Assembly (NCBI RefSeq): GCF_013004695.1
Contig: NZ_JABEMG010000013.1
Span: 1-55,789, forward strand
DNA: 55,789 bases
Source: Promicromonospora citrea
GTDB lineage: Bacteria > Actinomycetota > Actinomycetes > Actinomycetales > Cellulomonadaceae
Direction of reading: 5' to 3'
The translations under genes were made by a program, and so were the position numbers. A model generated the notes under the pieces. That model was not told the origin of the DNA and did not search any database. It saw only the letters and a program-made list of their open reading frames with translations. Below are positions 20,612-54,434 of this stretch, piece after piece (position 1 is the stretch's first letter; each line of letters begins with the position of its first letter).

Positions 20612-20617
20612 TCGGTC

Positions 20618-20623
20618 ATCGTA
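20618..20623 (-). promoter_or_regulatory. -10 element for leaderless methyltransferase transcript
   Basis: TACGAT on the reverse strand fits the actinobacterial TANNNT -10 and lies 6 nt before the ATG. No ribosome-binding site is seen upstream of that ATG. The rest of the 245-bp divergent spacer to 20856 shows no gene; TATGGT at 20805-20810 is a possible -10 for the opposite operon. Confidence 0.45.
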
Positions 20624-20856
20624 GCCGTGGAGTCCCACACCCGCGCTGCCGGCCCTGGTGTGACGTGCAACGATGCTTTCGACACCGGCACCGCGACGCT
20701 GCAGGTCAGCGACGTGGGACACGTGTGCGCCGGCTGTCGGGTCGCCAGGACGATTCACCCGGATGACATCGGGCCGGCGGTACGCGACGTGTGCCGACCG
20801 CAACTATGGTCGTCCCTGGTGGCAGGCCCGCGACCGACGGATGCTGGGAGTGCGGA

Positions 20857-28480: not shown

Positions 28481-30502
28481 TCAGTCGGTCAGGGCAGCGC
28501 TGACCGCTCCTTCCTCGGGTGGGAGAACTTTCCATCCGTGCGCGACGAGGCGCTCCTGGTCGGCGCCGAGCCTGCGCTCGAGATCTACCAACACCTTCTC
28601 GTCCTTCCAGAGCATCGAGACGATCGTCCCGTCGATCTCGGCGCCGATCTCGGGAACGGGGAGGTGCGGGCCGCCTGCAGCCACCAGACGTTCGGCGAAC
28701 TGACGCTCGGCAGGCGTCACGTCCGCCTTGGCGAGAGCTCGAAGCCACTCCGACGGCATCGGGACAACCGTCCCGATGCCGGCCCGACCCAGTCCCAGCT
28801 CCGGCTTCTCCGGCGTGCCGACCACGGACAACCTGTCGAGAAACTGGTTGCGGTGCTCGCACGTCGTCTCCGGCGCGAGGACGCACGCATGGCAAGCAGC
28901 GAGGTTCAGCGCGTCGGCACCGGTGGACCCGGTCTCGGCGCACACCGGATCGTTGGAGCACCAGGCGGCTCGTTCGAACGCGTTGCGGACAACCTGCGCC
29001 AGGTCCTGCGTGGCAGCGAGGGCTGCGAGCCCGCCCAGGCTACCGGCGGAGTCGGAGGACGCCGTGTACAGGAGAATCCCCGCCTGGCCAGGCAACGCGT
29101 ACACTCGCTCGCGGATCGAACCCTGCGGGTAGCCCGCATCGAGGCTGAGCTCCTTGACCAGCATGTGCGCCAAGCTGTGCAGCGCCACGAACCGAGCATT
29201 CACCGGCTCGGTGGCGATCTTCATCGCTGCGTCACGTGCGTCCTGCGCGTAGCGGATCGCCGCTTCGCGCTCTGCGGCGAACGCGCTGCTTTCCCAGGCC
29301 GCGACCACATCCTCGTCGAGTCGGACGAAGATCCCCTCACCCATGACCTCGACAGCAGGAAGCCACCCGGCCTTGTCCGCGGCGAGGGCGGCCGTCCGCG
29401 CCGAACCCGCCTCCGACTCGACCGGGGTGACTCGCGAGAACCCGGACAGCACCCGCACCTCTCGCAGGCGGTTCACCTGTGAGACCTGCGCGACCAGGCC
29501 GCCGAGCGACGGGTGGACACCGACAGCGGTGCACTGGAACGAGTCGCGCCGCGAACCGACGTGGCCCGCCACGAGCGCCTCGTACTCCTGGCTGCGCAGG
29601 GTGTCGTCGTCCGGTGCCTCGTCCGCGTCGAGACCCAACCGCTGCCGAACCACGTCGACCACCGCGTCAGCCGTGATCCCGTCCTGACCACCGATCATGG
29701 CCACGATCGCCGGCCAGGCGGCCGCCTCGCCCATGTTCTCGTACATCGGCTTGAGCGCCGACCAGTGCGTCGTGACGAACTGCGCCGCCGCGCTCGACCA
29801 CGGCGGGATCGAGATGCTGGACCGCTGCACCGGAAACCACACGTTGGATGCACCACGCTGGAAGACCCGCAGGGGTCGGTCACAGTCCGGCTCGTTCGGT
29901 GCGTCTGTGAGCCAGGGCCTGCTCCCGGAGCACTTCCTGATGCCTTGGAGCGCACCCGCTCCGAAGGCACCCTCCATGTTGTACGGGCGCACACCGCAGG
30001 AGCAGGAGACGACGATGGATGCGAGCGACGACGAGCTACCGCTTGTCCACAGGGTCAGACGGTGTTCCGCACCCCCCTGCGCCTCCTGGCCACGGTGGAC
30101 CCACTGGAAGTAGGGAAAGTCCTCGATATGTCCGTTCTCGCAGCAGGCCACGAAGCGGGACGGAGTGAGGTCGCGAGCACACTCCTCGCACCGCGTCTCC
30201 CCCTTCTTGGCGCCGAACTTCCAGAACGGCGCGAGCCGCCGGCAGCCCGAGCAGTAGTGCCACTCCGGGAAGCGGACCGCGGGCACGTCGCCACGTCTCC
30301 TCCCCGTCGGCGGTGCATGGAAGGTGTGAACCCCGAGCGATCGGGCGAGGCGGGGCTCCTCGACCGTCGGAGCGAACTTCGTGTCCCACTCGTCGATCCC
30401 GCAGATCATGAAGCTCGCGTCGGCGGCAGGGAACAGCGAACCGACGCCATACGTCGTCACCAGCTGGCTCTGCCGCGCCTTGGGCTTGTCCGAAACAGCC
30501 AT
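28481..30502 (-). CDS. drmB: DrmB-like protein (DUF1998)
   Basis: 673 residues. A zinc-ribbon region at about 84-125 has paired cysteines (C84/C87, C105/C108, C120/C121) followed by NGHIEDFPY. The DUF1998 block is FVALHSLAHMLVKELSLDAGYP with IRERVYALPGQAGILLYTAS, and a late cysteine cluster follows (CSNDPVC, ACHACVLAPETTCEHRN). DUF1998 proteins pair with a helicase; in DISARM this is DrmB with DrmA, which load on unmodified phage DNA. The start overlaps the drmA stop, as expected for that pair. It is the last gene of its operon. Confidence 0.82.
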   Translation of the reverse strand: MAVSDKPKARQSQLVTTYGVGSLFPAADASFMICGIDEWDTKFAPTVEEPRLARSLGVHTFHAPPTGRRRGDVPAVRFPEWHYCSGCRRLAPFWKFGAKKGETRCEECARDLTPSRFVACCENGHIEDFPYFQWVHRGQEAQGGAEHRLTLWTSGSSSSLASIVVSCSCGVRPYNMEGAFGAGALQGIRKCSGSRPWLTDAPNEPDCDRPLRVFQRGASNVWFPVQRSSISIPPWSSAAAQFVTTHWSALKPMYENMGEAAAWPAIVAMIGGQDGITADAVVDVVRQRLGLDADEAPDDDTLRSQEYEALVAGHVGSRRDSFQCTAVGVHPSLGGLVAQVSQVNRLREVRVLSGFSRVTPVESEAGSARTAALAADKAGWLPAVEVMGEGIFVRLDEDVVAAWESSAFAAEREAAIRYAQDARDAAMKIATEPVNARFVALHSLAHMLVKELSLDAGYPQGSIRERVYALPGQAGILLYTASSDSAGSLGGLAALAATQDLAQVVRNAFERAAWCSNDPVCAETGSTGADALNLAACHACVLAPETTCEHRNQFLDRLSVVGTPEKPELGLGRAGIGTVVPMPSEWLRALAKADVTPAERQFAERLVAAGGPHLPVPEIGAEIDGTIVSMLWKDEKVLVDLERRLGADQERLVAHGWKVLPPEEGAVSAALTD

Positions 30503-33500
30503 CAGTTCGCCTTCCTTCGCGTCACGATCCGCAGTGTGCTCTCTCTGTCGACGTTGCGCAGGCTCGTCAGGGTCGGCCAGGCGGGTTCATCCACGGGGAA
30601 GGTGTCCACGGGCACGGTCTCGGCCGAGGCGCCGAACGGCGCGCCGCCTGCGGGAACCATCAGTGCCTTCTCGTCGCTCATCCAGCCCTCGTACTTCATG
30701 ACGTCGTGGTCCTCGACCGCGTCCGTCCAGCGCTCGACGAGGCCCTCGAGCGCCACGCGGACCTCGGTCTCGCTCCCGGCCTTGACCGAGCGCGCACGGT
30801 TCACGATCACGTCGATCAGACGATCGAACGCGTCCGCCCCGACCGGCGCCGCGACCGACGTGCTCCCGGAAGCCCCCGCGACGGTGTGGCGGGCGAGAAT
30901 CACGAGCAGGCCGTGCAGCGCCCGGTCGAGCGCCCGCGGTGCGAAGGGTGTCGCACCGGTGGCCTCCACCTGCTTGTACAGGGCGCGGTGGTAGCTGGTG
31001 AAGGACTCGTAGTGGGACAGATCTCGCGACTTGGCGGCGTTGAACATCGTGACCACCAGGCCGGGACGGGACCGGCCGACGCGTGAGGTCGCCTGGATGT
31101 ACTCCGAGGTCATCTGCGGCTGCCCCATGACGCTCATCAGGCCGAGCCGGTCGACGTCGACGCCCACCGAGATCATGTTGGTCGCAAGGACCACGTCCGG
31201 GCTGTCTTCGTGGGGGAACGAGGTACCGAGCCGTGCGAGCTCCTCGGGGATCTCGCTCGACTTCTTCCGGGACGTCATCTCGCGCGGGTCACGGATCTGC
31301 CTTACCTCCTGACCTGACCGCGCGGCGACGACCTTCATGCGGTCGGGCACGTCGTCGAGCGACTGGATGTAGGCGGCCCCCAGCACCCGCAGGCTGTTGA
31401 AGTAGCCCAGCATCGTCCAGTATGCGTCGCGCACCTCGTCGGGCGCGTCGAGGTCCTTGCCCGCCTGCAGCAGGGCGGCGTAGACCCGAACCAGCAGCGT
31501 GGCGTGGCTCGTCGACGGCGCCATGACGCCCACGTAGCGCCGCGTCGGTCGCTCGTGTGGCTCAGCGTCGACTGCGAAGAACGAGTCACCGGCGTCCAGG
31601 CCAGGCGGCGGAAACTGCTGCGCCGCGCGGTTGAACACTGCCCTGACCTGTGATGTCGCTCTGCGGATGGTCGCAGTGGAGGCCACTAGTTTCGGCCGAA
31701 CGCCCTCGTCCGACGTGGCCAGGGCATCGATCGCCGTCTCGTAGAGGCCGACCAGGGTGCCGAGGGGGCCGCTGATGAGGTGCAGCTCGTCCTGAATGAT
31801 CAGATCGGGCTTGACATCGTGGAACGCGCCCAGCACAGCGCCCGCCTCACCACGCCAGGCAAGCATCGCGAACTTGTCGACCGTGCCGATCACGAGCGAG
31901 GGCCGTTCGGCGTAGACGTCGGTGTCGACGAGGTGGACGGGCAGCCCGTCATGGAACTCACACGCGGTGGCCGGGCAGTGGACGGTCATCCGGTCACCGT
32001 GCACGTCGGCCTCGTACGCGGCCACCGGAAGGGACGTCCCGCACCAAGGACAGCGCAGGAGTTGTCGGGGGTTGCCCTCATCGGTCGGCTCCTCGCCGTC
32101 CCGCATCTTCTTGAGCGCTTTCGCCGCCTTTTTCACGTCGTTCGGCGTCGCCCCCTGCCCGACCCAGAGGCCGATCGAGAACCTCGGGAGGCCGGGTGCC
32201 TCTCGCCGGCGCCACTCCTCGAGGGCACAGATCAGACCAGCGGCCCGCTCGAACTGCTGGATGGTGAGGAGCCTCAGGGTGTAGCGCATGATCACGCCGA
32301 CACCGGCGCCGATCTCGGGTCCACCACGGAGGCGACGCAGCACCAGCGTGAACGCGATCAGGCCGAGGTACGCCTCCGTCTTGCCACCGCCGGTCGGGAA
32401 CCACAGCAGGTCCGCGACATCCCGGTCCTTGTGACCGGGTTCCGCCAGGCCGACGAGGTTGAGGAGGACGAAGGCCATCTGGAAGGGGCGCCACTGCTCT
32501 TCCTCGTCGGGCGGAGTGTCGAGGCCCTTGCGGACCATCACCTGCCTGACGCGCTGTTGCTGCATCACCTGGTTCATGACCCGGAACGCACGGGCTGCCT
32601 CCGGGTCCCGGTCGAGCAGCTCGATCCCGGCGCGCATTCGCTCGACCGCCCGCCGAGCGTCCGTCAGATGCCGCTCGGCTGTGACGACGTGCCGTGGGTC
32701 GATCTCGGGTATCCCGGACTCCTGCTGCGTGATCCACTGCTCGTAGACGTCGACCAGTCCGACCAGCGCACTCCGGTCGTCGCCCGACCCGAGACTCTTC
32801 ATGCCGAGCGTCGGGACGTCGTTCCGGTCCGCCTTCGCGAGCCGTAGGTCATGGCTCGGGAAGAACGTCGTCTCGAGTCGCCGGACGTGGTCGCTCTCCT
32901 CCCAGACGACCGCGCAGCCGTGACCTACGGCGAGGTGCCGCTCTCGCCGGTACAGGAGCTCGCCGCTTCGCTCGTCCTCGTCCTGGAACGTCAGATCGCG
33001 CGCCGGCCGTCGATCAACGAAGGTACCGCCGGGAGTCGTGACCACGAGGCGCGGTCGGAACCAGCACAGGTGGTCGGCGTATCCCTTGTCGGGTCGCACC
33101 CGCGTGTTGACGAGTGCCAGCGTGATGCTGACCGCGCCGTCACGCTCGGGCCTGACCACAGCGCGCAGGCTGAGCCCTTCGCTGACGGCCCATTCCTGGT
33201 CCGTACGGGGGTGTGCCACGTCCACCGAGAACGTCGCAGGTCCGACGGGGACAACCCTCCACAAGCCGTCGTTCCGCGTGGCAGCGCGCGTCTCGGCCAG
33301 TTCCTCGACATCGGGTGCCGCGACCGCTGCCGCCCCTGCCTTCGTCCGACGCTCCGCTGCACGCCGGGCAAGCTCCTCCTTGGCCTGCGCCTGCTCCTGC
33401 GGGTCCACGACCTCGCGATAGCCATCGGCAGAAACCTCCACCTCCACGACCGGGGTATCCGCCGCGACGGAGAACGTCAGGCCTGTCGTGGACGGGTAGC

Positions 33501-33750
33501 GCATGCGGGCCAGCGCCACAGCCGGGTCGTCCCGAGAATCGGTCGCGGTCCCTGTGTCGGCCTCGTCGTCGTCCCGCACGTCCTCGATCGGTTCGGCCGA
33601 CCGGGGATGCAGGATGCCGACGACGAACCGGGACAACGGAGCCTCGGTCAGGACGTCGTCCGTATCGGTGGCCCCGTACAGATCGGCGACCAGGGCCTCG
33701 ACCAGGGCCTCCCGCGCCGCGTACCAGGCGTCGACCGTCCGATCAGTCAT
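30502..33750 (-). CDS. drmA: DrmA-like superfamily II helicase
   Basis: 1082 residues. The N-terminal 430 residues are not recognised. The helicase has Walker A FPTGGGKTEAYLG (451-463), a zinc-knuckle insert (CPWC 567-570, HCPATAC about 591-597), motif II QDELH (653-657), motif III VASTATI, and C-terminal motifs MISVGVDVDRLGLM and QATSRVGRSRPG. The GGGKTEAYLG plus DELH combination and the drmB neighbour match DISARM DrmA. ATG at 33750 overlaps the upstream UvrD-like gene by 8 bp. Its likely role is an ATP-driven motor that engages incoming DNA with DrmB. Confidence 0.82.
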   Translation of the reverse strand: MTDRTVDAWYAAREALVEALVADLYGATDTDDVLTEAPLSRFVVGILHPRSAEPIEDVRDDDEADTGTATDSRDDPAVALARMRYPSTTGLTFSVAADTPVVEVEVSADGYREVVDPQEQAQAKEELARRAAERRTKAGAAAVAAPDVEELAETRAATRNDGLWRVVPVGPATFSVDVAHPRTDQEWAVSEGLSLRAVVRPERDGAVSITLALVNTRVRPDKGYADHLCWFRPRLVVTTPGGTFVDRRPARDLTFQDEDERSGELLYRRERHLAVGHGCAVVWEESDHVRRLETTFFPSHDLRLAKADRNDVPTLGMKSLGSGDDRSALVGLVDVYEQWITQQESGIPEIDPRHVVTAERHLTDARRAVERMRAGIELLDRDPEAARAFRVMNQVMQQQRVRQVMVRKGLDTPPDEEEQWRPFQMAFVLLNLVGLAEPGHKDRDVADLLWFPTGGGKTEAYLGLIAFTLVLRRLRGGPEIGAGVGVIMRYTLRLLTIQQFERAAGLICALEEWRRREAPGLPRFSIGLWVGQGATPNDVKKAAKALKKMRDGEEPTDEGNPRQLLRCPWCGTSLPVAAYEADVHGDRMTVHCPATACEFHDGLPVHLVDTDVYAERPSLVIGTVDKFAMLAWRGEAGAVLGAFHDVKPDLIIQDELHLISGPLGTLVGLYETAIDALATSDEGVRPKLVASTATIRRATSQVRAVFNRAAQQFPPPGLDAGDSFFAVDAEPHERPTRRYVGVMAPSTSHATLLVRVYAALLQAGKDLDAPDEVRDAYWTMLGYFNSLRVLGAAYIQSLDDVPDRMKVVAARSGQEVRQIRDPREMTSRKKSSEIPEELARLGTSFPHEDSPDVVLATNMISVGVDVDRLGLMSVMGQPQMTSEYIQATSRVGRSRPGLVVTMFNAAKSRDLSHYESFTSYHRALYKQVEATGATPFAPRALDRALHGLLVILARHTVAGASGSTSVAAPVGADAFDRLIDVIVNRARSVKAGSETEVRVALEGLVERWTDAVEDHDVMKYEGWMSDEKALMVPAGGAPFGASAETVPVDTFPVDEPAWPTLTSLRNVDRESTLRIVTRRKAN

Positions 33751-35527
33751 CGTTCTCTCCCGTGTTCTCTCCTAAGCCCCAGCGGACGTCGAGCATCCCT
33801 GCGGTCGTGACGCCCAGCCACAGGCCACGACGGCCGACGTGGGCCGCCGCCTCGCCCGCGACCGTCACGACGTCCTCCACCTTTGCGCCGGACAGCCGTG
33901 GCCACGGCAGGATCCCGTGAGCTCGCTTCTCCGCCGGCCCGATGCGCCGGGCAAGCGCCGTCCCGAACGTCTCAGAGGTCCGTCCGACGACAACGCCGTC
34001 GTGCAGCAGCGTGTATGTCGGCACGTCGAGCGACGACCGCCGCGGGTCGAGGGCCAGTTCGACATCGTCCCCCGACCTCACCTTCGTCGCGAGGTGCTCC
34101 TGGGTGAGCACAGCATCGTCTCCCGGCACGGTCGTCGAGTCCAGGTCGCCCGCCCGGAGCTCGAAGCCGAAGGTCTGCCACTTCTTGTAGCCCCCGACAT
34201 ACCACCGGTCGTCGCCCTGCCGGAACACCCGCCGTGACCGCCCGTCCACACGGACGATCCGGTCGCGTGCACGAGTGAGGGCGACGAATCGGCAACGCCG
34301 ATCCTCCGCGGGATCGACAGACTCCCGGGTGCCGTACGTGGCGAAGTCCACCAGGACGACGTTGTCGAACTCAAGGCCCTTCGCTCGATGCACGGTCGAG
34401 ACGATCAGGCCGTCGTCCTGCTGGTGCACGACCTGCGGGGGCAGGGGCCTGCTACCTGCAAGTCGACGGGCCAGGCGCCCGACGTCGAGCTCGTTGCCGT
34501 GCGAGCCTGCCACTGTCCGCAGCGCCCGCCAGAGGTCCGCTGGATCGTGCCGGACGTCGAGCTGTTCGAGACGCTCGAACAACTCGTCCCGTCGGATGGA
34601 CGCGGGCCGCCAGTCCGCGAGCGCCTCGGCGACCCATCGCGCGACGACACGCTGGTCCGCCCGCCGGCGAAGCCGCACCGCGCTCCCCGCCTCCGCCACC
34701 TCGCGGGCGACGAGCATCGCCTGTCCGTTCGTCTGGGTGAGAAAGGCCGTGGTGCCCTGCCAGCTGCGGGCTACTCGGACGACATCGGGCACAGTCCCCG
34801 CGTGGACGACCTCGGCCTCGAAGTCCTCAAGGGCGTCGCCGCCCGCCACCACCGTGTCACGAAGCCGCGCTGCACCCCTCGCATCGCGGGTGCGGGCACG
34901 ATATTGCCCGGTCAACACTTTCTCCTGGACGTCGCCGTTGGTCGAGGCACGCGCCAACAGGTCGGCCGACGTTGTCCTCGAGCGTTCGTCGAGCTGGAAG
35001 TCGTAGATCGCCTGGGCCAGATCGCCGAGCAAGGTGAAACCCCCATCGCGGTCCAGGAGGTCGAGGATCGTCAGAAGGAAGTCTGCACGCAGTCCGACGA
35101 CGTCCTGGACCTCGTCGACGACGAGATGGCGTACGGCTGCGAGCCGATCCCACCCCTCGTCGCGGAGGACCTTCGTCGCCTCCCCGACGCGGGCGTCGAA
35201 GGACAGCGTTGCCGGGTCGACGTCGCCGACGTCACGGAGGATCTCCAGCGCCAGCGAATCCATCGTCTGCACGGTCACCGGGTCCAGTCCCTTGCGAGCG
35301 AGACGACCGGCTGCCGCATGGACCGCTGCGTTCGAGAAGCTGATCACGAGGATCTCGGTCGTGGGCTCGAGGTCCTCCTCCTCGATGAGGTGCTCGATGA
35401 GTGCTGCGACCACCTCCGTCTTGCCCGAGCCGGGCCCTGCCACGACGACCTGCCGTGTCTCCGGCTCGATCTCGACGGCGGCCCGCTGGCCGGTGTCCAG
35501 GTTCACCATGTCGCTCACCGCTTCCAC
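33743..35527 (-). CDS. UvrD/Rep-like superfamily I helicase
   Basis: 594 residues. Motifs in order: Walker A VVVAGPGSGKTEVV (GPGSGKT 31-37), motif Ia ILVISFSNAAV, motif II LVVDEVQDV (D138, E139), motif III LLGDLAQAIYDF, motif V STVHRAKGLEFDNVVL, and motif VI FVALTRARDRI. The C-terminal 120 residues beyond the helicase are not recognised. The first ATG (35527) overlaps the giant upstream gene by 13 bp; ATG at 35509 would avoid the overlap. It is co-translated with drmA. A stand-alone UvrD-type helicase is not part of textbook DISARM. Confidence 0.88.
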   Translation of the reverse strand: MEAVSDMVNLDTGQRAAVEIEPETRQVVVAGPGSGKTEVVAALIEHLIEEEDLEPTTEILVISFSNAAVHAAAGRLARKGLDPVTVQTMDSLALEILRDVGDVDPATLSFDARVGEATKVLRDEGWDRLAAVRHLVVDEVQDVVGLRADFLLTILDLLDRDGGFTLLGDLAQAIYDFQLDERSRTTSADLLARASTNGDVQEKVLTGQYRARTRDARGAARLRDTVVAGGDALEDFEAEVVHAGTVPDVVRVARSWQGTTAFLTQTNGQAMLVAREVAEAGSAVRLRRRADQRVVARWVAEALADWRPASIRRDELFERLEQLDVRHDPADLWRALRTVAGSHGNELDVGRLARRLAGSRPLPPQVVHQQDDGLIVSTVHRAKGLEFDNVVLVDFATYGTRESVDPAEDRRCRFVALTRARDRIVRVDGRSRRVFRQGDDRWYVGGYKKWQTFGFELRAGDLDSTTVPGDDAVLTQEHLATKVRSGDDVELALDPRRSSLDVPTYTLLHDGVVVGRTSETFGTALARRIGPAEKRAHGILPWPRLSGAKVEDVVTVAGEAAAHVGRRGLWLGVTTAGMLDVRWGLGENTGENDD

Positions 35528-38500
35528 AGGTACTCGAACGTGTTGAAGGCGAGCAGGTCGCCGTACTGCGTGAAGTTATCCCGCACGTTCACGATCAGGA
35601 CCTCCTCCGAGCCACCGTTGCGCGGCCCCCTCAGCCCTCGCCCGATCATCTGCTGGTAGACGTTCGGGCTGAAGGTCGGGCGGGTCACGTAGACCGCCTG
35701 CACCCGAGGGGCATCGAAGCCCTGCGTGAGCACGCCGTAGTTGGTGATGACGCGGATCCTCCCCGCCTTGAACTGCTCGACGTAGTGCCGCCGCGCCGCG
35801 GCGTCGGTGTCCGCGGAGATGGAGACCGCGGGAACGCCGCGGTGCGAGAGCAATGCGGCCAAGGTGCGGGAGTTCTCGACCGAGGAGGCGAACACGAGCA
35901 TCGTCCAGTCAGCGGGCCGGCCGGCTATGTCGTCGACGATGCGAAGCGTGCGATCGTTGTCGTCTCCCAGACGCTCGGTGACGCTCGACGGGAGGCGGGT
36001 CGCTTTCTCGATCTCAGCGATTTCCTGACCGGTCAGCTCCACCTTCGAACCGTCAAGAATCTCCTGTCGGACGCGAGCGAGCACGCCCATGTCCTGGAGC
36101 TCCAGGTAGGGGTTGTCGGGGTCGGCGAAGGCCCCGTCGTCGAGGCGGTTACCGCCGTACCGGTTGACCAGGCGCTCCGTCTCGTACTGCGACCGGCCTC
36201 GGAACGGGGTAGCTGTGAGGCCGATCAACGGCCGACGCTGGCTGACCCTCCGTGTCCTTCCACTCCTGTCGAACCACTCGAGCGCCTTCGTGTACTCGGG
36301 CGCGACCGACGCGTGTGCCTCGTCGATCACGACCACGGAGGGGACCCGCATCCATTCGTACCTTGCGGGTTCCCGTTCCGCGACGCTGCGCACCTTGTCG
36401 ATGCCTGCGACGACGAGCTGGAAGGACGACGGGTCCTCGACGACAGAGTTGCTGCCCCACAGACGCCCGACGTTCATCGGCACCTGCGGACCGACCGCCC
36501 GCCAGATGTGGGTCCACGTCTCGACCGCCTGCTCGCACAGCTCCTCGGTCTGCGCGATCCACACCATCGGCTCGTCGTCAGCGATGTATCCCTCTCGCAG
36601 CCCGTCAACGAGCGCCTGGACCGCCACCCGTGTCTTTCCGGCACCGGTGGGTAGCGCAACCATGCCTCGGTCGCTGCCCGTGCCCAGGAACAGGTCTTTG
36701 ATTCGCTCGGTGACGGTGACCTGGTAGGAGTGCAACGGCTTGAGCATCGCGGGGCCATCGACGGTCTCCTGCGCCGGACGGGTGTTGCTCGTGAACCCGG
36801 CCCACTCCGTGGGGAACCCGAGGTTCTCGACCCAGCGACGCGTTCTGCTGCGCCCGGTCCACTCGCGCGGCGGTTCGAGGCCATGGTCCTGAAGAGCCGC
36901 GAGGATGGACGGCTGCTTGAGCACCCCGACGCCGTGCACGGCGCGAGCCAACGCCGCGATCTCGTGCGGGCCCGCCGTTCCCGCCTGGCCCTCGACGACG
37001 TCCAAGACCTGCTTGGGCAGGCTCCGACGCAACACGTCGACGCCCACGGCGGCAAGCAGCCGATCGTCGTTGGTCGCAGCCTTCTTGATCGTGGCGACGA
37101 GCTTGCGCGACTTCTGCGCGGCCATCTGGTCGAACACGCCCCGGATGTCCGCAGTCGACATGTTCAGGTTGAGCGCAGCGACGACCTGGGTGAGGACCTC
37201 GGCCGGGTCCGACGCGGTCACGTGGACGACCTCGCCTTCCCGCCGCTGCCTGATCGGACGGCCCTTCTGCCCCTCCGGAGTCGCGACGAGACGTTCGATG
37301 CTCCGGCAGGGCTGCACCTGGATCTCGTGGTCCTCGACCGGAACCCAGAGCTTCATCGGCGGGTACAGGTCCAGCAGGTACTCGGGCTCCCCGTCCGGGA
37401 CGACGAGGATCTCCTCCTGCAGAAGGTCCTTACCCGGCCTGGCCCCCCAGACCTCGACAAACTGCTCGCAGTCGGCGCTGTCCGCCAGCAGGAGGGCCGG
37501 GACCTGCGCCTCCACCAACGAGTCATACACCGCCGGGTCGGTGGTCACGCCGATGTTCTCCGGGGCGACCTCCTGGTACCGCCGGCCGACCCGCGCCGTC
37601 AGCGGCATGGGGTCGTCCGGAAGCTTGAACGGGAGCCACCCGTACAGCTTTCCGCGGCGCGCATCGGCGTCGGGACTGCCCGTCCACGTCGCGGCTCGTG
37701 CAGCCAACGTCTTCCAGTCCTCGGGCGACATCTGGTTCTCGTCGTCCGGATCTGTCCTCAGCCGGAGCAGCTTCGCGAACGCGTCGCCGATCTCAACCGT
37801 CGGGAACACCTCTCCATCGATGTCGTCCGAGGCCTGGAACACCTCGCTCGGACGCAGGTGGCCGAAACCCGGCACGTCGAACACTCCGTACCGGTTCAGG
37901 AACCAGACCTCGGGCGGACGGACCGGCAGGCGCCCGTAGCTGCTGTTGCTGCTGTGATGCACCGTCCACGACGAGGGTGTGCCTCGCCGCACGAGGGCAT
38001 CAGTCACGACCGCGCGGGCTTCAGAGGACATCTCAATGAGCGGCTCCAGAGGCCACGGCGGGGCTGACCCCTCCGCGACGATCCGGTCACGCTGGGGCGT
38101 CGAGCCCTTCTGCTTGCTGATGAACCGGTCGGCGACGGCCTTCTCGTAGGCGGCCATCCACGGTTCGTGCGGCGGGTCCGGACGGTACGTCGGTTCGTCG
38201 ACGGCGCCGATCCGGCGCAGGATCCGGACGTCGCTGTCGGTGTGGAAAAGCGGATCGATCAGTCGGTCCTGGTCCCGCCCGACGCCTCGGGCGATGAGCC
38301 GGCCCTCGAGGTAGGCGTCGGCGATACCTCGCCACGAGCCATCGGCGGTCCGGACCCGAATCGCCCTCTCGAGGCTCTCCCCGAAGTCCTCGACGAACAG
38401 CGCGTAGACCGTCTCCTCGTCCTCGATCATGCGCGCGGTCTGCCAGATCCTCTGCCACGTCTGCGCAAGCAGAGCCTTGTCCCTGAGGACCTCGGCAGAA

Positions 38501-40305
38501 CGTGCGTGAGCGAAGTGACCGCGCAGCTCACCGCTGCGGTCGAACACCACGATGCCAAGGACCTGCAGTGCTTTCCTGACCCCGTCCTGAGCCACGAGCT
38601 CCGCATCGACGAACTCGTGGCCCGTGTCGTGGTCGGACTGGCGCACGAAGATCCGACCCTTCTCCGGCTTTCGGAACGTCCCGTTCTCGAGCCGGATCAA
38701 CCGCGCACCGAGCACGCCCTGCACGGCACGCGACCGCCGGCCGGCGTCCACGATGCGCTGGGAATCCTGGAACATCCGGGCAGCGAGCCGGATCGCCGCC
38801 GCGGACGAGCGGACCGACCCGTCCGCGACAAGGTCCTCGAGCCATGTCGCAACCGGTGTCGCCGTCGCTCCGTCGAGGCCACGGCCTGAGGTACCGGACA
38901 ATAGCCGCTCGATCTTCGAGCGTCGCTCGGGACTGGTGTAAGCACCTGGGTGAACCCAACGATCCCTGGGCGCCGCGGGATGGTCTGCCCATTCCTGCAG
39001 CCAGGCACGCTCCACGTCATCGACGAACCCTGTCCAGCGGAGCTCCGCCGGCTTTCGCAGCACACCGGTGCCGTCCGGCACCGACCTGACGGTGCGCAGG
39101 TGCTCGAAGACCGGTTCGTTGATCGTCTCGTCCGCCCAACCACGGTTCTCCCGACCTCGGGCGGGCAACACGTCGAGGATCCGCGCCGGATCCTCCTGCT
39201 CCCCGTAGACCTGGACGGCCTCGCCGACCAACCGTGGCAGGACCGAGGTCAGGATCTCTTCGTTGAACGCCGTCTCCAGGAGTCCGAGCCGGTCATCGCT
39301 GAGCTTCCACGGGGCATTGACAAGACCGGAGAGCGTGGTGCGCTCCCGTGTGGGGAAGTACGCCCAGAACTGGCCCACCCCGCCCACGGGCACCTTGGCT
39401 GCGTACTGCACCGGAACCTCCTCGCGGTCGGCGACCCTGCCTGCCTCCGCGCGTGCCCGTGCGCTCGGCCGGTGCTGCGCCTCGGCCAGACTCCACACCT
39501 CCGACCGGCCCCCGAATTCGATCGTGACCGTGCCGTCTGGGTTGGCGACCCGGCGGACGACGTCGTCCGTGACGTCCTCGTGCCCGATCTCACCTGCACC
39601 GCCGGCGGTCCATGTGGTGAGGTCGTAGAACCGGGCCTCCGTGACGTGTGGGGCGAAGAGGACGAATTCCGGTTGGAAACTCATGATCCGTTGACTCAAG
39701 GCCCGGTGCGCTCCGGAGAGAGGAAGCGCCACTACGGTGCTCGCCCACTCCATCAGCGTCTTGAGGTGCGGATCTGCAGCGGCATGTGCAGCCGGGTCCA
39801 GTACCTGGGCGAGCCGCATCGTCGGGTATCGGGGGGACTCGAAACCGTACTGCCGGAGCGTCGCCTCGGCCCATGCCTTGTCGAAGCCGAAGGACACCGA
39901 TCGGCTGAAGATCCTCGGCCGATCCGTGACGGCTAGCACCGACTTGAAGCCGATACCGAACCTGCCGATGCTCTCGCCGTCCTTACGAGAGAGATCGGAT
40001 GCCAGGAGCGCGTTGACCCCGGCCGCGTCGAAAGGTTCGCCGTCGTTCGCGACGTACAGCGTCTCCGCCGTGAGTCTGACCTCGAGCCTGCTGCCGCCAC
40101 GACGCGCGGCGTCCACGGCGTTCTGCACGGTCTCCTCGAGCTGGCGGTTGTTGTACCCACCCTCGGCGATCCTCAGCTCGTTGTTCGCGTCCTGCTCGAC
40201 ACGGCTCCGATCCTCCCGATAGACCGCGAGACACGTCTCGGTCTGCTCGGCCACGAGCCTCGCGAGTGCGCCCTCGCCCCGCTGCCACTCCTGCATCTTC
40301 CCCAC
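35515..40305 (-). CDS. Giant GHKL-ATPase (sacsin/HSP90-type) plus DEAD helicase
   Basis: 1596 residues with two motor domains. The N-terminus has a Bergerat ATP fold of the sacsin type: RQLEETVQNAVDAAR (E57/E58, N62, D65), VANDGEPF (D88, G89), GESIGRFGIGFKS (110-122). The C-terminus is a full SF2 helicase: ALPTGAGKT (1217-1225), VVIDEAHAS (D1328-H1331), GLTATPFRG, YGVLTQGFDAPRVQAVY and QMIGRGLRG. The roughly 1070 residues between them are unrecognised. GTG at 40305 has GGGAGG close upstream; ATG three codons in is an alternative. It is first of the four-gene right operon, and probably a sensor-motor protein for foreign DNA. Confidence 0.85.
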   Translation of the reverse strand: MGKMQEWQRGEGALARLVAEQTETCLAVYREDRSRVEQDANNELRIAEGGYNNRQLEETVQNAVDAARRGGSRLEVRLTAETLYVANDGEPFDAAGVNALLASDLSRKDGESIGRFGIGFKSVLAVTDRPRIFSRSVSFGFDKAWAEATLRQYGFESPRYPTMRLAQVLDPAAHAAADPHLKTLMEWASTVVALPLSGAHRALSQRIMSFQPEFVLFAPHVTEARFYDLTTWTAGGAGEIGHEDVTDDVVRRVANPDGTVTIEFGGRSEVWSLAEAQHRPSARARAEAGRVADREEVPVQYAAKVPVGGVGQFWAYFPTRERTTLSGLVNAPWKLSDDRLGLLETAFNEEILTSVLPRLVGEAVQVYGEQEDPARILDVLPARGRENRGWADETINEPVFEHLRTVRSVPDGTGVLRKPAELRWTGFVDDVERAWLQEWADHPAAPRDRWVHPGAYTSPERRSKIERLLSGTSGRGLDGATATPVATWLEDLVADGSVRSSAAAIRLAARMFQDSQRIVDAGRRSRAVQGVLGARLIRLENGTFRKPEKGRIFVRQSDHDTGHEFVDAELVAQDGVRKALQVLGIVVFDRSGELRGHFAHARSAEVLRDKALLAQTWQRIWQTARMIEDEETVYALFVEDFGESLERAIRVRTADGSWRGIADAYLEGRLIARGVGRDQDRLIDPLFHTDSDVRILRRIGAVDEPTYRPDPPHEPWMAAYEKAVADRFISKQKGSTPQRDRIVAEGSAPPWPLEPLIEMSSEARAVVTDALVRRGTPSSWTVHHSSNSSYGRLPVRPPEVWFLNRYGVFDVPGFGHLRPSEVFQASDDIDGEVFPTVEIGDAFAKLLRLRTDPDDENQMSPEDWKTLAARAATWTGSPDADARRGKLYGWLPFKLPDDPMPLTARVGRRYQEVAPENIGVTTDPAVYDSLVEAQVPALLLADSADCEQFVEVWGARPGKDLLQEEILVVPDGEPEYLLDLYPPMKLWVPVEDHEIQVQPCRSIERLVATPEGQKGRPIRQRREGEVVHVTASDPAEVLTQVVAALNLNMSTADIRGVFDQMAAQKSRKLVATIKKAATNDDRLLAAVGVDVLRRSLPKQVLDVVEGQAGTAGPHEIAALARAVHGVGVLKQPSILAALQDHGLEPPREWTGRSRTRRWVENLGFPTEWAGFTSNTRPAQETVDGPAMLKPLHSYQVTVTERIKDLFLGTGSDRGMVALPTGAGKTRVAVQALVDGLREGYIADDEPMVWIAQTEELCEQAVETWTHIWRAVGPQVPMNVGRLWGSNSVVEDPSSFQLVVAGIDKVRSVAEREPARYEWMRVPSVVVIDEAHASVAPEYTKALEWFDRSGRTRRVSQRRPLIGLTATPFRGRSQYETERLVNRYGGNRLDDGAFADPDNPYLELQDMGVLARVRQEILDGSKVELTGQEIAEIEKATRLPSSVTERLGDDNDRTLRIVDDIAGRPADWTMLVFASSVENSRTLAALLSHRGVPAVSISADTDAAARRHYVEQFKAGRIRVITNYGVLTQGFDAPRVQAVYVTRPTFSPNVYQQMIGRGLRGPRNGGSEEVLIVNVRDNFTQYGDLLAFNTFEYLWKR

Positions 40306-40591
40306 GGCCTCCCCTTGTCGGTCCTGCTCCGTCCGACCTTCTCAGACGGCGAAGCGGGTACACGTCGGCAGGTGTTCTGGAGGCTCCAGTTCACCCGGGT
40401 GATACGACTTGGCCCGGCCACCACTGCCTTGCGACAGCTTGAGCCGCCGTTGTGCGCCCTGGAATCGACTCTGCCCCGGATTCCGCCGGTGGCGCATCGC
40501 TCGAAATGGTGTCGCGCCGACACCCGATCAGGTCACATGAGCTGCCCGATCGGGTAACCCTTCCATCCGGTCAGGCGCGTCGGGAGACGAC

Positions 40592-40604
40592 TACCCTCGC
40601 CCCT
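40592..40604 (+). promoter_or_regulatory. -10 of a leaderless helicase-kinase promoter
   Basis: TACCCT (40592-40597) fits TANNNT and ends 7 nt before the GTG at 40605, with no ribosome-binding site at usable spacing. The divergent spacer 40306-40604 otherwise shows no gene; it must also hold the promoter of the reverse-strand giant gene, which I could not place. Confidence 0.5.
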
Positions 40605-43454
40605 GTGCCCCAGGTGATCATTCCGTCCGAAATCCCGGCTCTCGACGGCAGCCTGCGTGCCCAGGCGTGGGCCTTCATCGACAAGCTCCGGCGGGATGAC
40701 ACGACACCCGGCCTACACATCGAACCGATGAAACAGGCTGCGGACCGCCGCGCCCGGACAGGGCGGGTCAACGACGGATGGCGCGCGGTCCTGATCAAGC
40801 TCACCGGCTCCGACGACGAGACGCGGTACGTCTACCTGGGAACCTATCCGCACGACAAGGCGATCGAATACGCTCGGAGCGTCATCTTCCAGCGCAACCC
40901 GCGCACGAGCGGCGCCGAGGTGGTTCGCGTCGACCTCGTCACGGATCTGCCGCCGACATCCTCCTCGGAGCCATCGGCAGCTCCTGTCGAGACGGCGCCC
41001 CTCCCCCTCCTGCAGGGGCTCGGCATCACGTTCGAGGACCTCGTCGACCTCGGCGTCGCGCCGTCCACCGCGCACGAGGCACTGTTCGCGACCGACCAGG
41101 ACCGCTTTCTCGAGGTTGCGCTCACAGCTCCATCGGCTTTTCAGACGGATGCACTGCTCTGGCTCGCCGACGGCAGGACGACGGGCGAGGTCCGAGCCGC
41201 CTACCGTGTCCAACCGGTGCAGGGCGGAACCGAGCGGGACACCGATGACGACCTGATCGGTGCCCTGGATCATCCGGCCTCGCGTATGGAGTTCACCTAC
41301 CTCGAGGACGACGAGGATCTTCGAGCCGCGATCGAGGGAAGCTTCGCCCGCTGGCGCGTCTTCCTCCATCCGGAGCAACATAGCTATGTCCACGCACCCA
41401 CATCCGGCGCCTTCAGACTGTCCGGCGGCGCGGGGACGGGCAAGACGGTCGTACTGCTCCATCGGGCCCGCATGCTCCATCGGAGAGACCCAAAGGCCCG
41501 AATCGTCCTCACGACCTTCAACCGGACGTTGGCTGCCACGCTGGTGGCCAACCTGCGGCAGCTCGACAGGGAAGTCCTGACGGCAAGGCGCCCGGGGGAC
41601 CCTGGGATACACGTCGGTACGGTAGACGCGGTGGCTCGGCATCTCTTGTCCCACGCCGCCGACAACAAGCTCGACGTCGGCTCCGCAGCTCGCGCTGTGC
41701 TCGGTGCTTCGCGGACGGACGTGGTACCCGCCACCCCGACCTCAGCCCTGTGGGCAGAGGCGTTGCGCCTGACCGGCGACCGACTTCCCGAAGAGCTGCG
41801 GAACACTGACTTCCTGCAATCCGAATACGCCTACGTGGTGCTTCCGCAGAAAATCTCCACGCGCGACGCCTACCTTCACGGGCGGAGGCAGGGCCGAGGG
41901 GTCCCGCTCGGACGGGCACGACGTGCCGCTCTCTGGGACGTCGTGGAGGCTTACCGCAGGCTGGCCGCGACGGCAGGGACGACCGACTACGACGAGAAGG
42001 CGATGCTGACCGCGGTCGCGCTCGACGAGGTAGCAGCGACAACCGGCCGTCGGGTGGCGGACCACGTGCTCGTCGACGAGGCGCAGGACCTCACGCCGGC
42101 TCGCCTCCTCCTCCTGCGGGCCCTCGTCACTCGCAGGGCGGACGACCTGTTTCTCGCCGAGGACGCCCATCAACGCATCTATGCCCCGCCGATCGTGCTG
42201 GCGCGGTACGGAATCCACGTCGCCGGCCGGTCCCGCCGGCTCCGGCTCAACTACCGAACCACTGCCCAGAACCTCGACTATGCGACGAGAGCTCTCGCAG
42301 GCCACGACTTCGTCGGCCTCGAGGACGACGCGGTAGACGACACCGGCCTGCGATCGGCACGGTCCGGCCCACCGCCGAGCCTTTCCCGCTGCTCCACGAC
42401 CTCCGAGGCGTACGAGACGACGATCGACACGGTCCGACGGTGGCTTGCAGACGGGGTGCTGCCCGAGACGATCGCGGTGCTGGTGCGTACCGGTAACGAG
42501 GCGGCGACGGTACGCCGCGACCTGGAGCGCGCGGGCGTGCCCGCTCAGCTCGTCGGTAGCAAGGACACACCGGGTACCGGCCGGGTCCTGGTGATGACCA
42601 TGCACCGTTCCAAGGGAATGGAGTTCCGTGACGTCGTGGTGCTCGACCTCTCGAGCGTCGAGCGCGCCCTGGAACGCATGCCCGCAGGGGACCGGGCCGA
42701 CGGGCTGCTCCGAGAGCGGTCTCTGTTCTACGTGGCCACGACACGAGCGAGAGACCGGCTGGCAGTCGTCGGCATCGGCGGGTCCGGCGGACTTGCCACC
42801 GGCACCCGCGCGGGCGCAGCAACTCCCCTGGGACAGAGCGGACTCACGGCGGCGGAGGAGCGGGCCGCTCTGGCTCGGGAGGTCCACGACACCGTCGGCC
42901 ACTCTCTCGCTCGGATCGCGCTCCAGGCCTCGGCCCTGGAGGTCGCGTCGGACAGCCCAGCCGTCCGCGAGTTCACCGCGCAGATCAGAGCCGCCGCGCG
43001 ACAGGCGGGCGCTGAGCTCCAAGATCTGCTGGCAACGCTCCGCACCGGCGCCGACGGGCGCACCGATGTGTCGTTCGCCGACCTGACGGAGCTGCTCAAC
43101 GGGCTCAAGGAGCAGGGCGCTCGGATCACGAGCACGGTCGTCGTCGAGGAAGGACACACCGCCGGCCGTACTCTCACGCGCACCTGTTATCGCATCGTGC
43201 AGGAGTCGGTCACCAACGCGATCAGACACGCCCCGGGCTTCCCGGTGGACATCAAGCTGCGCGGCGCTCCCGACTCCGGTGTGACCGTCATCGTCACCAA
43301 CCCCCTGCCCGACGGCCTCGTCAGAGCACCTCGACCGCACTCGGGCATCACCGGCATGGTCGAACGCGCGGAGAGCCTGGGAGGGACGCTTTCAGCACGG
43401 CCGAGCGCCGGTTACTTCGTCGTCGATGCACGACTTCCCTGGGCCATGACCTGA
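40605..43454 (+). CDS. SF1 helicase fused to a NarL/DesK-class histidine kinase
   Basis: 949 residues in one frame. Residues 1-110 (LHIEPMKQAADRRARTGRVN, WRAVLIKL, YVYLGTYPHDKAIEYA) resemble the RelE/ParE-toxin-like domain that begins a known actinobacterial helicase family. The UvrD-type helicase follows: GGAGTGKTVVL (274-284), VLVDEAQDL (488-496), LNYRTTAQNL, MTMHRSKGMEFRDVVVL and YVATTRARDRL (about 706-716). After a short linker comes HisKA_3 with phospho-His761 in AREVHDTVGHSLARIALQAS, and a HATPase with N box CYRIVQESVTNAIRHAPG and late GITGMVERAESLGG. The kinase half has no membrane helix. GTG 40605 is chosen for homology and the leaderless -10. No response regulator lies next to it. 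Confidence 0.9.
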   Translation: MPQVIIPSEIPALDGSLRAQAWAFIDKLRRDDTTPGLHIEPMKQAADRRARTGRVNDGWRAVLIKLTGSDDETRYVYLGTYPHDKAIEYARSVIFQRNPRTSGAEVVRVDLVTDLPPTSSSEPSAAPVETAPLPLLQGLGITFEDLVDLGVAPSTAHEALFATDQDRFLEVALTAPSAFQTDALLWLADGRTTGEVRAAYRVQPVQGGTERDTDDDLIGALDHPASRMEFTYLEDDEDLRAAIEGSFARWRVFLHPEQHSYVHAPTSGAFRLSGGAGTGKTVVLLHRARMLHRRDPKARIVLTTFNRTLAATLVANLRQLDREVLTARRPGDPGIHVGTVDAVARHLLSHAADNKLDVGSAARAVLGASRTDVVPATPTSALWAEALRLTGDRLPEELRNTDFLQSEYAYVVLPQKISTRDAYLHGRRQGRGVPLGRARRAALWDVVEAYRRLAATAGTTDYDEKAMLTAVALDEVAATTGRRVADHVLVDEAQDLTPARLLLLRALVTRRADDLFLAEDAHQRIYAPPIVLARYGIHVAGRSRRLRLNYRTTAQNLDYATRALAGHDFVGLEDDAVDDTGLRSARSGPPPSLSRCSTTSEAYETTIDTVRRWLADGVLPETIAVLVRTGNEAATVRRDLERAGVPAQLVGSKDTPGTGRVLVMTMHRSKGMEFRDVVVLDLSSVERALERMPAGDRADGLLRERSLFYVATTRARDRLAVVGIGGSGGLATGTRAGAATPLGQSGLTAAEERAALAREVHDTVGHSLARIALQASALEVASDSPAVREFTAQIRAAARQAGAELQDLLATLRTGADGRTDVSFADLTELLNGLKEQGARITSTVVVEEGHTAGRTLTRTCYRIVQESVTNAIRHAPGFPVDIKLRGAPDSGVTVIVTNPLPDGLVRAPRPHSGITGMVERAESLGGTLSARPSAGYFVVDARLPWAMT

Positions 43455-43569
43455 CGGTGGCACGTTCACCCGCGCAGCAGGGGTGAAGACCGGCCACACG
43501 GCCGCCACCCACGGCGCCCGGTGCATAGACTCCCGTCGTCCCCACCCGCACGCGCCCCAGGAGCTGACC

Positions 43570-52252: not shown

Positions 52253-52460
52253 GAGGACTCCAACGATGAGGTCTGGGATGGCCCGGCGCGGCCCTGCGGT
52301 TCTGGGGACCGCGGCGTGTGCGGGCCTGGACCGCGCCGGTGGCACCACCCTCCCCGGAGCGCTGCCCCGCGCACATCGCCCGATCCGGTGCGCACCGCCC
52401 ACCCGATCGGGCCCGGCAAGATCACCCGGTCCGACGACGCGGCGGCACCCGCGCGCGACA

Positions 52461-52473: not shown

Positions 52474-53745
52474 ATGTATCCGCCGTACGTCCCGCACCAG
52501 GCGGACACCTCGCCGACCACGTTCCTGCGGAGGATCGCGCCCTCCGTGTGGAGCGTGATCGGCTCGCTGGCCCTCGTGGCCCTGTGCTTCGCGAGCTCGT
52601 GCCTCGCGGTCGTCTATCTCGACATGGCCGGCCGCCCCGCCGGCCTCGACGCGGCCACGGTCACCCCGCTGCCGCTGTCGCTGGTGGGGATGCTCGTCGC
52701 CTTCCTGGTCCCGTGGACCGTCTTCCTCCGGAACGTCGCACCCGTCTCGGTGGTGCTCGCCACCAGCGCCCTGTCGCTCCTGCTCCCGTACGACGCGGTC
52801 ACCCCGCTCGTCTGCCTGCCCGCGGTGTTCGCGCGGCGCTCGACGCGAGCCGTGGCCGGCTGCACGGCCGCGGTGGCCGCCGCCGTCACCGCCGCGACGT
52901 GGCGCCAGCTCTCGCTGGCCGAGGAGTACCGGCTCTTCACGCTCCGGGACCCGGTCACCGGGCAGGTCGACGGCGTGCTGCCCGCTCCCGTCTACGTCGT
53001 GCTCGGTGTGCTCGCCCTGGGGTTCTCGGTCGGCATCGGGTTCTGGCGGCGGGCCGTCGCGGGGCGCCGCGCCGTCGTCACCCTCACCGAGCAGCACTCG
53101 GCGGAGACCGCGGTGCTGCAGGACCGGATCACGCGCCAGACCGAGCGCGACGAGATCGCGCGCGAGGTGCACGACACCGTCGCCCACTCGCTGTCCCAGA
53201 TCGCGCTGCAGGCGTCGGTCCTCGAGACCGCCGCCGGCACATCAACCGAGGTGCGCGACGCCGCGGCCCGCATCCGCGCGTCGGCCCGCCAGGCCGGCAC
53301 CGAGCTGCGCGGGGTGCTCACCACGCTGCGCACGGGCGCGGACGGCCTGACGCCCGTCTCCTTCGACGACCTCGGCGGCCTGCTGCTCTCGCTGCACGAC
53401 CAGGGCGCGCGCATCAACAGCACGGTCCTGGTCTCCGAGGGGCACACGGCCGCGACCGTGCTGACCCGGGCCTGCTACCGGATCGTGCAGGAGTCGGTGA
53501 CCAACGCGCTCAAGCACGCGCCCGGCCTGCCGATCGACATCGTGCTGCGCGGTGCACCCGCCGTCGGCGTCACCCTCACGGTCCGCAACGCGCTGCCCGA
53601 CGGCGGCGCGACGCCCGCGGCCGGCACCCGGTCGGGGATCACGGGCATGACCGAGCGCGCCCAGGCACTCGGCGGCTCGCTGACGGCGGGGCCGGTCGAG
53701 GGCCGCTGGGTCGTCGACGCCCACCTGCCCTGGCATCACGCCTGA
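52474..53745 (+). CDS. NarL/DesK-class membrane sensor histidine kinase
   Basis: 423 residues. Four or five membrane helices occupy about 26-190 (VWSVIGSLALVALCFASSCLAV, LSLVGMLVAFLVPWTVFL, VYVVLGVLALGFSVGIGFW). HisKA_3 with phospho-His233 lies in AREVHDTVAHSLSQIALQAS, and the ATPase has N box CYRIVQESVTNALKHAPG and GITGMTERAQALGG. The response regulator follows 32 bp downstream. Its kinase half is about 67% identical (127 of 188 aligned positions by hand) to the kinase half of the helicase fusion at 40605-43454. The signal it senses is unknown. Confidence 0.92.
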   Translation: MYPPYVPHQADTSPTTFLRRIAPSVWSVIGSLALVALCFASSCLAVVYLDMAGRPAGLDAATVTPLPLSLVGMLVAFLVPWTVFLRNVAPVSVVLATSALSLLLPYDAVTPLVCLPAVFARRSTRAVAGCTAAVAAAVTAATWRQLSLAEEYRLFTLRDPVTGQVDGVLPAPVYVVLGVLALGFSVGIGFWRRAVAGRRAVVTLTEQHSAETAVLQDRITRQTERDEIAREVHDTVAHSLSQIALQASVLETAAGTSTEVRDAAARIRASARQAGTELRGVLTTLRTGADGLTPVSFDDLGGLLLSLHDQGARINSTVLVSEGHTAATVLTRACYRIVQESVTNALKHAPGLPIDIVLRGAPAVGVTLTVRNALPDGGATPAAGTRSGITGMTERAQALGGSLTAGPVEGRWVVDAHLPWHHA

Positions 53746-53777
53746 CCACCGGGGATGTCAGACCCGGCGCCTACCGT

Positions 53778-54434
53778 ATGACCGTGACCAGAGTGCTGAT
53801 CGTCGACGACGACTCCTTCGCCCGCACCATGATCCGCTCGATCCTGACCGCCCAGCAGATCGAGGTGGTCGGCGAGGCGAGCGACGGCGACGAGGTGCCT
53901 GCCGCCGTCGCGGAGCACCGGCCGGACATCGTGCTGGTCGACCTGCAGATGCGGCGTGTCGACGGCGTCGAGGCGATCCGGCGCAACGCCGCGCTGCCCG
54001 GTGCGCCCCGCTTCGTGGCGCTCACGGGCTACGGCACCGAGGACGCCGTCCTGCGGGCGATCCAGGCCGGCGCCGCCGGCTTCCTGTCGAAGGACGACGA
54101 CCCGGCCACGCTCGCGGGCCACCTGCGCGCCGTGGCCGAGGGCGGAGGCGCGCTCGGGCCCGACGCCGCCGCCCTCGTCATCCAGCGCATGACAACGGCG
54201 CCCGAGACCCACGACCGCGTCGCCGAGGCACGTGCCCGCCTCGAGGAGCTCACCGAGCGCGAGCGCACGGTCGCCGCGCACGTCGCGGCCTGGACGAACC
54301 AGCAGATCGGCACCCGGCTGGGCATGTCCGAGAACACCGTCAAGGCGCACGTCACGCGGTCGCTCACGAAGCTGGGCCTGACCAGCCGGGCGGAGCTCGC
54401 CGTGCTCGCCGACCGCGCCGGACTGACTCCGTGA
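53778..54434 (+). CDS. NarL/FixJ-family response regulator
   Basis: 218 residues. Receiver domain 1-120 with acidic DDD (10-12), phospho-acceptor Asp55 in IVLVDLQM, the conserved Thr in VALTGYG and Lys in GFLSKDDD. The LuxR-type HTH is at about 153-210 (LTERERTVAAHVAAWTNQQIGTRLGMSENTVKAHVTRSLTKLGL). Partner of the kinase just upstream, and the only response regulator in the window, so also the best candidate target of the helicase-fused kinase. Confidence 0.92.
   Translation: MTVTRVLIVDDDSFARTMIRSILTAQQIEVVGEASDGDEVPAAVAEHRPDIVLVDLQMRRVDGVEAIRRNAALPGAPRFVALTGYGTEDAVLRAIQAGAAGFLSKDDDPATLAGHLRAVAEGGGALGPDAAALVIQRMTTAPETHDRVAEARARLEELTERERTVAAHVAAWTNQQIGTRLGMSENTVKAHVTRSLTKLGLTSRAELAVLADRAGLTP

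Follow-up and report, generated by a model that had tools for sequence, protein, structure and literature searches.

Among anti-phage defences, Detocs is a two-component-like system, and histidine kinases mostly receive their input through membrane sensors or PAS/GAF domains. Regulation of immune operons by a kinase upon DNA damage has been described for CapK/CapS, in which single-stranded DNA (ssDNA) activates the GHKL serine kinase CapK; that report also names CapW/BrxR and CapH/CapP and counts DISARM among the operons regulated, and the regulators it names either respond to ssDNA or are a protease or a serine kinase (PMC13373217). Near BREX, a Schlafen RNase has been reported in fusion with a minimal histidine kinase and a winged helix-turn-helix domain (PMC12839542), and ArmD has been reported as necessary for anti-phage activity in E. 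coli, a change in its Walker A motif leaving the system inactive (PMC12458937). Here we analyze a gene of Promicromonospora citrea lying at 40605-43454 of a 55,789-nucleotide stretch of DNA (contig NZ_JABEMG010000013.1, hereafter the window) and joining such a helicase to a histidine kinase. We consider it probable (about 60%) that the ArmD-type RelE-UvrD helicase serves as input domain to a two-component system, one that regulates the operon encoding it and probably also DISARM- or ARMADA-like genes nearby. The basis of this reading in the sequence is the fusion, its conservation, its linkage to regulator genes and a shared operator sequence.

The fused gene and its distribution

The gene is a single open frame of 949 amino acids (aa) with zero internal stops, organized as follows:

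40605..43454, plus strand: fused gene comprising a RelE-like domain, a UvrD-type helicase, a linker and a histidine kinase (949 aa)
40605..40934, plus strand: RelE/ParE-superfamily domain (aa 1-110)
41367..42779, plus strand: superfamily 1 (SF1) helicase core (aa 255-725)
42780..42845, plus strand: linker (aa 726-747), of low confidence in the structure model and unconserved
42849..43046, plus strand: HisKA_3 dimerisation and phosphotransfer helices (aa 749-814), with the H761 codon at 42885-42887
43074..43442, plus strand: catalytic and ATP-binding domain (aa 824-946), with N and G boxes present and Asn in the D box

The preliminary description of this DNA had recognized the helicase and the HisKA_3 kinase and overlooked the RelE/ParE-superfamily domain. 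Pfam detected UvrD-helicase at residues 255-527 (E 4.6e-18) and UvrD_C at 659-721 (E 1.6e-17), both above cut-off, and the core, that of a complete UvrD-type helicase, carries the motifs GGAGTGKT at 274, VDEAQD at 490, LNYRTT at 548, TMHRSKG at 665 and VATTRARD at 710. HisKA_3 was matched at 752-815 (E 1.3e-12, 48.5 bits for a cut-off of 24 bits). Its phospho-acceptor is H761, as had been proposed under the same residue number, and the acidic D762 follows it to form the HD pair of HisKA_3 kinases. As for the ATP-binding boxes, earlier called intact, the N and G boxes are present as in 40/40 aligned kinases, and the D-box residue is Asn, as in 38/40. The HATPase_c match at 860-899 reached 16.7 bits, under the 26.4-bit cut-off; native kinases fall below it too (18.9 bits in the window, 19.3 bits in genome G011), and the domain displays alpha/beta elements in the structure model. 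The linker has a predicted local distance difference test score under 50 at residues 727-747, and its identity is 15-30% in four of the five pairs compared, the G215/G170 pair standing at 85%.

The fusion was found in six of the 221 family genomes searched: besides the window genome, in Myceligenerans pegani (G209), Oerskovia rustica (G215), Promicromonospora sp. MEB111 (G007) and genomes G170 and G025, at 56-72% identity. The helicase half gave 26 matches in 25 of these 221 genomes (E<=1e-60), the six best being the fusions. No further fusion emerged from wider searches, which found the helicase in 39/396 genomes of the order and 68/394 of the class; of 192 frames in the collected loci that matched the helicase half at E<=1e-4, many being one gene under several locus numbers, only these six were fusions, and six additional long helicase-matching frames carried no kinase. 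GTG 40605 is the likely start codon, since the frames of M. pegani, O. rustica, G170 and MEB111 open just three codons earlier; a -10-like TACCCT seven bases upstream supports this assignment.

In a helicase tree of 45 rows the fusions form one clade with support of 100/100, recovered in 100% of 200 bootstrap trees, and a single old fusion event is indicated. Between the window and M. pegani, nonsynonymous (dN) and synonymous (dS) divergences are 0.135 and 0.90 for the kinase and 0.219 and 1.06 for the helicase, with a linker dN of 1.0. Over five pairs dN/dS ranges from 0.15 to 0.44 for the kinase and from 0.18 to 0.31 for the helicase, values that are rough because dS is near 1 in four pairs. 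Judged by these rates, both halves are under purifying selection.

The preliminary description had claimed an in-frame fusion and made the claim depend on its presence in other genomes. All five further genomes carry the same domain order, G025 and G170 among them being assembled in one contig, and an assembly join is thereby ruled out. That the gene is either such a join or a decayed, functionless fusion might be suspected of a genome in 290 contigs; with these five genomes and dN/dS well under 1 it is scarcely credible. Comparison of the genome sequences thus confirms the helicase-kinase fusion as real and conserved.

Linked regulators and a candidate operator

The features relevant to signalling are the following:

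40524..40556, plus strand: candidate tandem operator at the fusion promoter, boxes at -81 and -59 from the GTG
40592..40597, plus strand: the -10-like TACCCT, 7 nt before the GTG, possibly a leaderless-type promoter
52380..52413, plus strand: candidate tandem operator of the native kinase gene, boxes at -94 and -71 from ATG 52474
52474..53745, plus strand: native histidine kinase, 61% identical to the fused kinase
53784..54434, plus strand: native NarL-type response regulator with REC and GerE domains, the best candidate partner found in the window genome

The native kinase has an N-terminal part that, judged by eye, looks membrane-spanning. In a kinase tree built by a quick method the fused kinases form one clade (SH-like approximate likelihood ratio test 98), nested in a clade of 9 rows that also holds native kinases from the window, G011 and M. 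pegani. On this phylogenetic evidence the fused kinase is derived from a chromosomal NarL-type two-component system, of which an intact copy lies 9 kb off (52474-54434). Recent capture from this nearby paralogue is ruled out by the separate clade of the fused kinases, and is also countered by the equal GC content at third codon positions (GC3) of the kinase half (0.816) and the helicase half (0.812).

In G007, G170 and G215 (3/6) the gene immediately upstream of the fusion, in the same orientation, encodes a response regulator of the clade matching these kinases, and REC and GerE domains of NarL type were confirmed in the G215 and G007 proteins. M. pegani has an orphan regulator of the matching clade between DrmB and Vsr; in G025 the orphan, which has no related kinase gene as neighbour, adjoins an SNF2 helicase/methylase pair and is 29 kb away from the fusion. 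No orphan regulator was found in the window, where the only clade member found is the native regulator, adjoining its own kinase. This protein is the likely candidate partner of the window fusion, being the sole regulator of the clade found there; it is 71% identical to the G215 regulator, the runner-up in the window genome reaching 45%. Nine aligned regulators retain the residues of the phosphorylation site: the acidic residues, phospho-Asp, Thr and Lys. Directly adjacent to the unfused helicase, no regulator match (E<=1e-6) was present at 17 loci, some with short flanks.

HisKA_3 kinases can act as phosphatases, and the kinase domain might mainly be a dimerisation or phosphatase module, or have a non-regulator target, the regulator linkage being left over from capture. 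The Asn in the D box, the HATPase score under cut-off and the missing adjacent regulator in the window and M. pegani would fit such a role. We find it distinctly improbable, given that the H, N and G boxes are retained in all six fusions with dN/dS well under 1, that orphan regulators are retained in M. pegani and G025, and that the D-box Asn and sub-cut-off HATPase scores are shared with the aligned and native kinases, respectively.

An input role of the helicase is further suggested by the upstream regions, which share the direct repeat CCGATCGGGTG, a nearly palindromic box spaced at 21-23 bp. Five of the six fusion genomes have a pair ahead of the fusion or of its operon, weak in one of them, and the sixth has a single box. 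Boxes stand at -89/-66/-45 before the regulator-fusion pair of G170, at about -89/-67 in G215 with a second pair further upstream, and at -93/-70 from the start codon of the native G011 kinase; in G025 the pair precedes the first gene of a lipoprotein-armC-armD-fusion run, presumably an operon. When 2.87 Mb of loci were scanned with a score out of 22, at least 19/22 was reached by 17 distinct strings, representing about 10 places. Nine of these are fusion operons or the front of same-clade kinase genes (window, G011, G020, G030), and the tenth is a locus picked by the pattern itself. With 40 shuffled consensuses the mean at this threshold was 0.45 strings and the maximum 3, and with 20 that kept GATC the mean was 0.85. 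The pattern GATCNGGTN{13,15}GATCNGG occurs at four places in the window's own genome, two of which are the promoters of the fusion and of the native kinase gene; it finds the fusion or its operon in 4/6 fusion genomes, and its backward control gave 0 matches in 12 genomes. The enrichment of the candidate operator is strong, though not a blind result.

The same operators could also serve autoregulation only, with the kinase-regulator pair controlling the amount of a RelE-helicase effector that could be toxic, in answer to something general (ATP, stress or a cross-signal from the native kinase) while the helicase defends independently of the kinase. Before the fusion or the regulator-fusion pair of the window, G170 and G215 the operator is indeed placed like that of the native kinase gene, and unfused ArmD defends without a kinase (PMC12458937). 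This explanation gives no account of why the kinase is fused to the helicase, and not its neighbour, in all six genomes; we regard it as unlikely, while retaining some weight.

If the helicase is instead the input domain, it would load on phage or damaged DNA, and its conformational cycle would free the kinase dimer through the flexible linker. H761 would then autophosphorylate and pass the phosphate to the regulator, which in its phosphorylated form would bind the CCGATCGGGTG repeats and change expression of the fusion, in positive or negative feedback, and probably that of a divergent or adjacent defence operon. The fullest form of this scheme, in which the SF1 motor, once engaged with invading or damaged DNA, would directly determine how the NarL-type regulator is phosphorylated and so raise or lower the whole defence island, other operons included, is tentative, and we put it a little short of even odds. 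The linked NarL-type regulators and the shared operator lend support to the phosphorelay output that had been proposed at the outset; DNA as the input of the kinase, autophosphorylation, transfer, regulator binding and the direction of control are what we infer.

Several observations weigh against the helicase as input domain. The kinase half evolves faster than the helicase in 3/5 pairs. The fusions of the window, M. pegani and G025 have no adjacent regulator, and the window candidate is already paired with its own kinase. Related kinase-regulator pairs lie about 4-8 kb from three of the 17 unfused loci (G191, G196, G003), so that regulator linkage alone is not unique to the fusion, and the regulators of the fusions, while in the matching clade, form no group of their own (3 changes in a quick tree). 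Regarding the operator, the M. pegani pair is weak (18/22) and far upstream (-181/-158), MEB111 has its single box at -54, and no box precedes the orphan regulator genes of M. pegani and G025. Lowering the score threshold to 18 yielded 33 strings, with shuffled controls averaging 4.4 and reaching 18 at most; since these promoters themselves supplied the consensus and many loci were chosen around such genes, the control is not blind. Finally, GATCNGGTN{13,15}GATCNGG misses G170 and G007 and has 81 matches in the 12 genomes, 26 of them in G011.

Relation to ARMADA and DISARM-like genes

By domain composition the helicase half is ArmD-like, that is, of the kind of the RelE-UvrD helicase of ARMADA type II, with a RelE-like N-terminal domain on a UvrD/GajB-like helicase. 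In the window genome it does not stand behind ArmA-ArmB-ArmC in one operon. With the G025 ArmC as query (E<=1e-40), no match was obtained in the window genome or the four other fusion genomes, G025 being the sole carrier; for this reason the fused form, as predicted from gene content, is ArmD-like and not an ARMADA subunit in 5/6 genomes. A YprA/ArmC-like gene precedes the unfused relative in G025, in G191 and on a Tsukamurella plasmid. In the two genomes that gene encodes 2145-2174 aa with DEAD, Helicase_C and MZB domains, and the plasmid order is helicase, methylase, Zn-binding helicase, UvrD. G025 itself (L132:8023-13288) has ArmC, an ordinary ArmD and, directly behind in tandem, the ArmD-kinase fusion. 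About 110-140 bases before an ArmA-like gene of G025 (L172:10558) there is a weaker operator pair (18/22), which suggests that its ARMADA operon may be controlled by the same regulator.

Upstream of the fusion in the window, a DISARM-like run is oriented divergently:

35515..40305, minus strand: sacsin-type ATPase with RadD-like helicase (1596 aa), divergent neighbour and first gene of the run
33743..35527, minus strand: UvrD/GajB-like helicase of the run
30502..33750, minus strand: DrmA (PADLOC E 6.2e-238)
28481..30502, minus strand: DrmB (PADLOC E 3e-75)

DrmA and DrmB thus occur together, which we take to define DISARM, with a methylase, DrmC/DrmE or DrmD as accessory genes. A 5mC methylase gene lies at 19061-20803 of the same stretch, about 7.7 kb from DrmB; PADLOC, run on 7 window proteins, gave no DrmC, DrmD or DrmE among the matches listed. 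The fusion and the run lie in a stretch whose GC3 (mostly 0.80-0.90) is lower than that of its surroundings (mostly 0.91-0.99). M. pegani and O. rustica share the window arrangement, with the fusion divergent from the run; the fusion adjoins pPIWI-RE in MEB111, belongs to an ARMADA-like island in G025 and lies near a GmrSD-type gene in G170. In three genomes the fusion and the DISARM-like run share an intergenic region that contains the candidate operator, 166-251 bases upstream of the sacsin gene (the G215 start being approximate), and from this position the divergent operon is a probable target of the regulator.

The sacsin gene occurs in 17/221 family genomes (E<=1e-60), 3 with the fusion and 14 without, which rules out that the fusion is obligatory to the sacsin-DISARM-like system; at 8 of the 14 other loci, those inspected, no fusion preceded the sacsin gene. 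The N-terminal part of the sacsin-type protein (relatives L272-L280) resembles TmtA. Between the sacsin gene and the fusion, the window has a palindrome TTCACCCGGGTGATA at 40390-40404, also present in M. pegani and altered in O. rustica, which may be a second operator serving the DISARM-like genes. The fusion is closely followed, at 43483-44808, by a 441-aa gene without a match to any Pfam (E<=0.001) or PADLOC family; G021 has a close relative of it (E 1e-131) (L148:17658-19022), about 6 kb from an unfused ArmD-type helicase.

Comparison with known systems

What turns immune operons on in the course of infection is an open field, and here an anti-phage-type helicase itself appears connected to a classical phosphorelay for which both a candidate partner and a candidate operator are defined, making direct signalling by defence enzymes testable in environmental actinobacteria. 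The fusion is carried by a few soil actinobacteria, and its partner genes and promoter DNA give clues to signalling towards a transcription factor, which suggests a defence protein able to report DNA encounters to gene control; if true, the known inputs of histidine kinases would be widened to a nucleic-acid motor. A literature search of titles and abstract openings yielded no named helicase-histidine kinase fusion. Of the novelty initially claimed, the fusion stands; its helicase is of a known kind, like ArmD (PMC12458937), and kinase control of immune operons upon DNA damage is known with other proteins, CapK/CapS (PMC13373217).

The fusion and the DesK/NarL-class (HisKA_3) systems have the kinase core, the regulator clade and the operator in common; they differ in that the helicase replaces the N-terminal sensor part. 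With ArmD it shares the N-terminal RelE-like domain plus GajB-like UvrD helicase, and it differs from ArmD by the C-terminal histidine kinase, the word "kinase" being absent from the main text of that report (PMC12458937). The Schlafen-kinase protein likewise places a kinase-type domain on a defence nucleic-acid protein, whereas no such helicase and no NarL-type regulator are mentioned in the available part of its account (PMC12839542). CapK/CapS would work alike, as a kinase-substrate pair beside immune operons; however, CapK is a Ser kinase of the GHKL type that acts upon a STAS repressor, in contrast to a HisKA_3 His kinase carried by a helicase and paired with a REC-LuxR regulator (PMC13373217).
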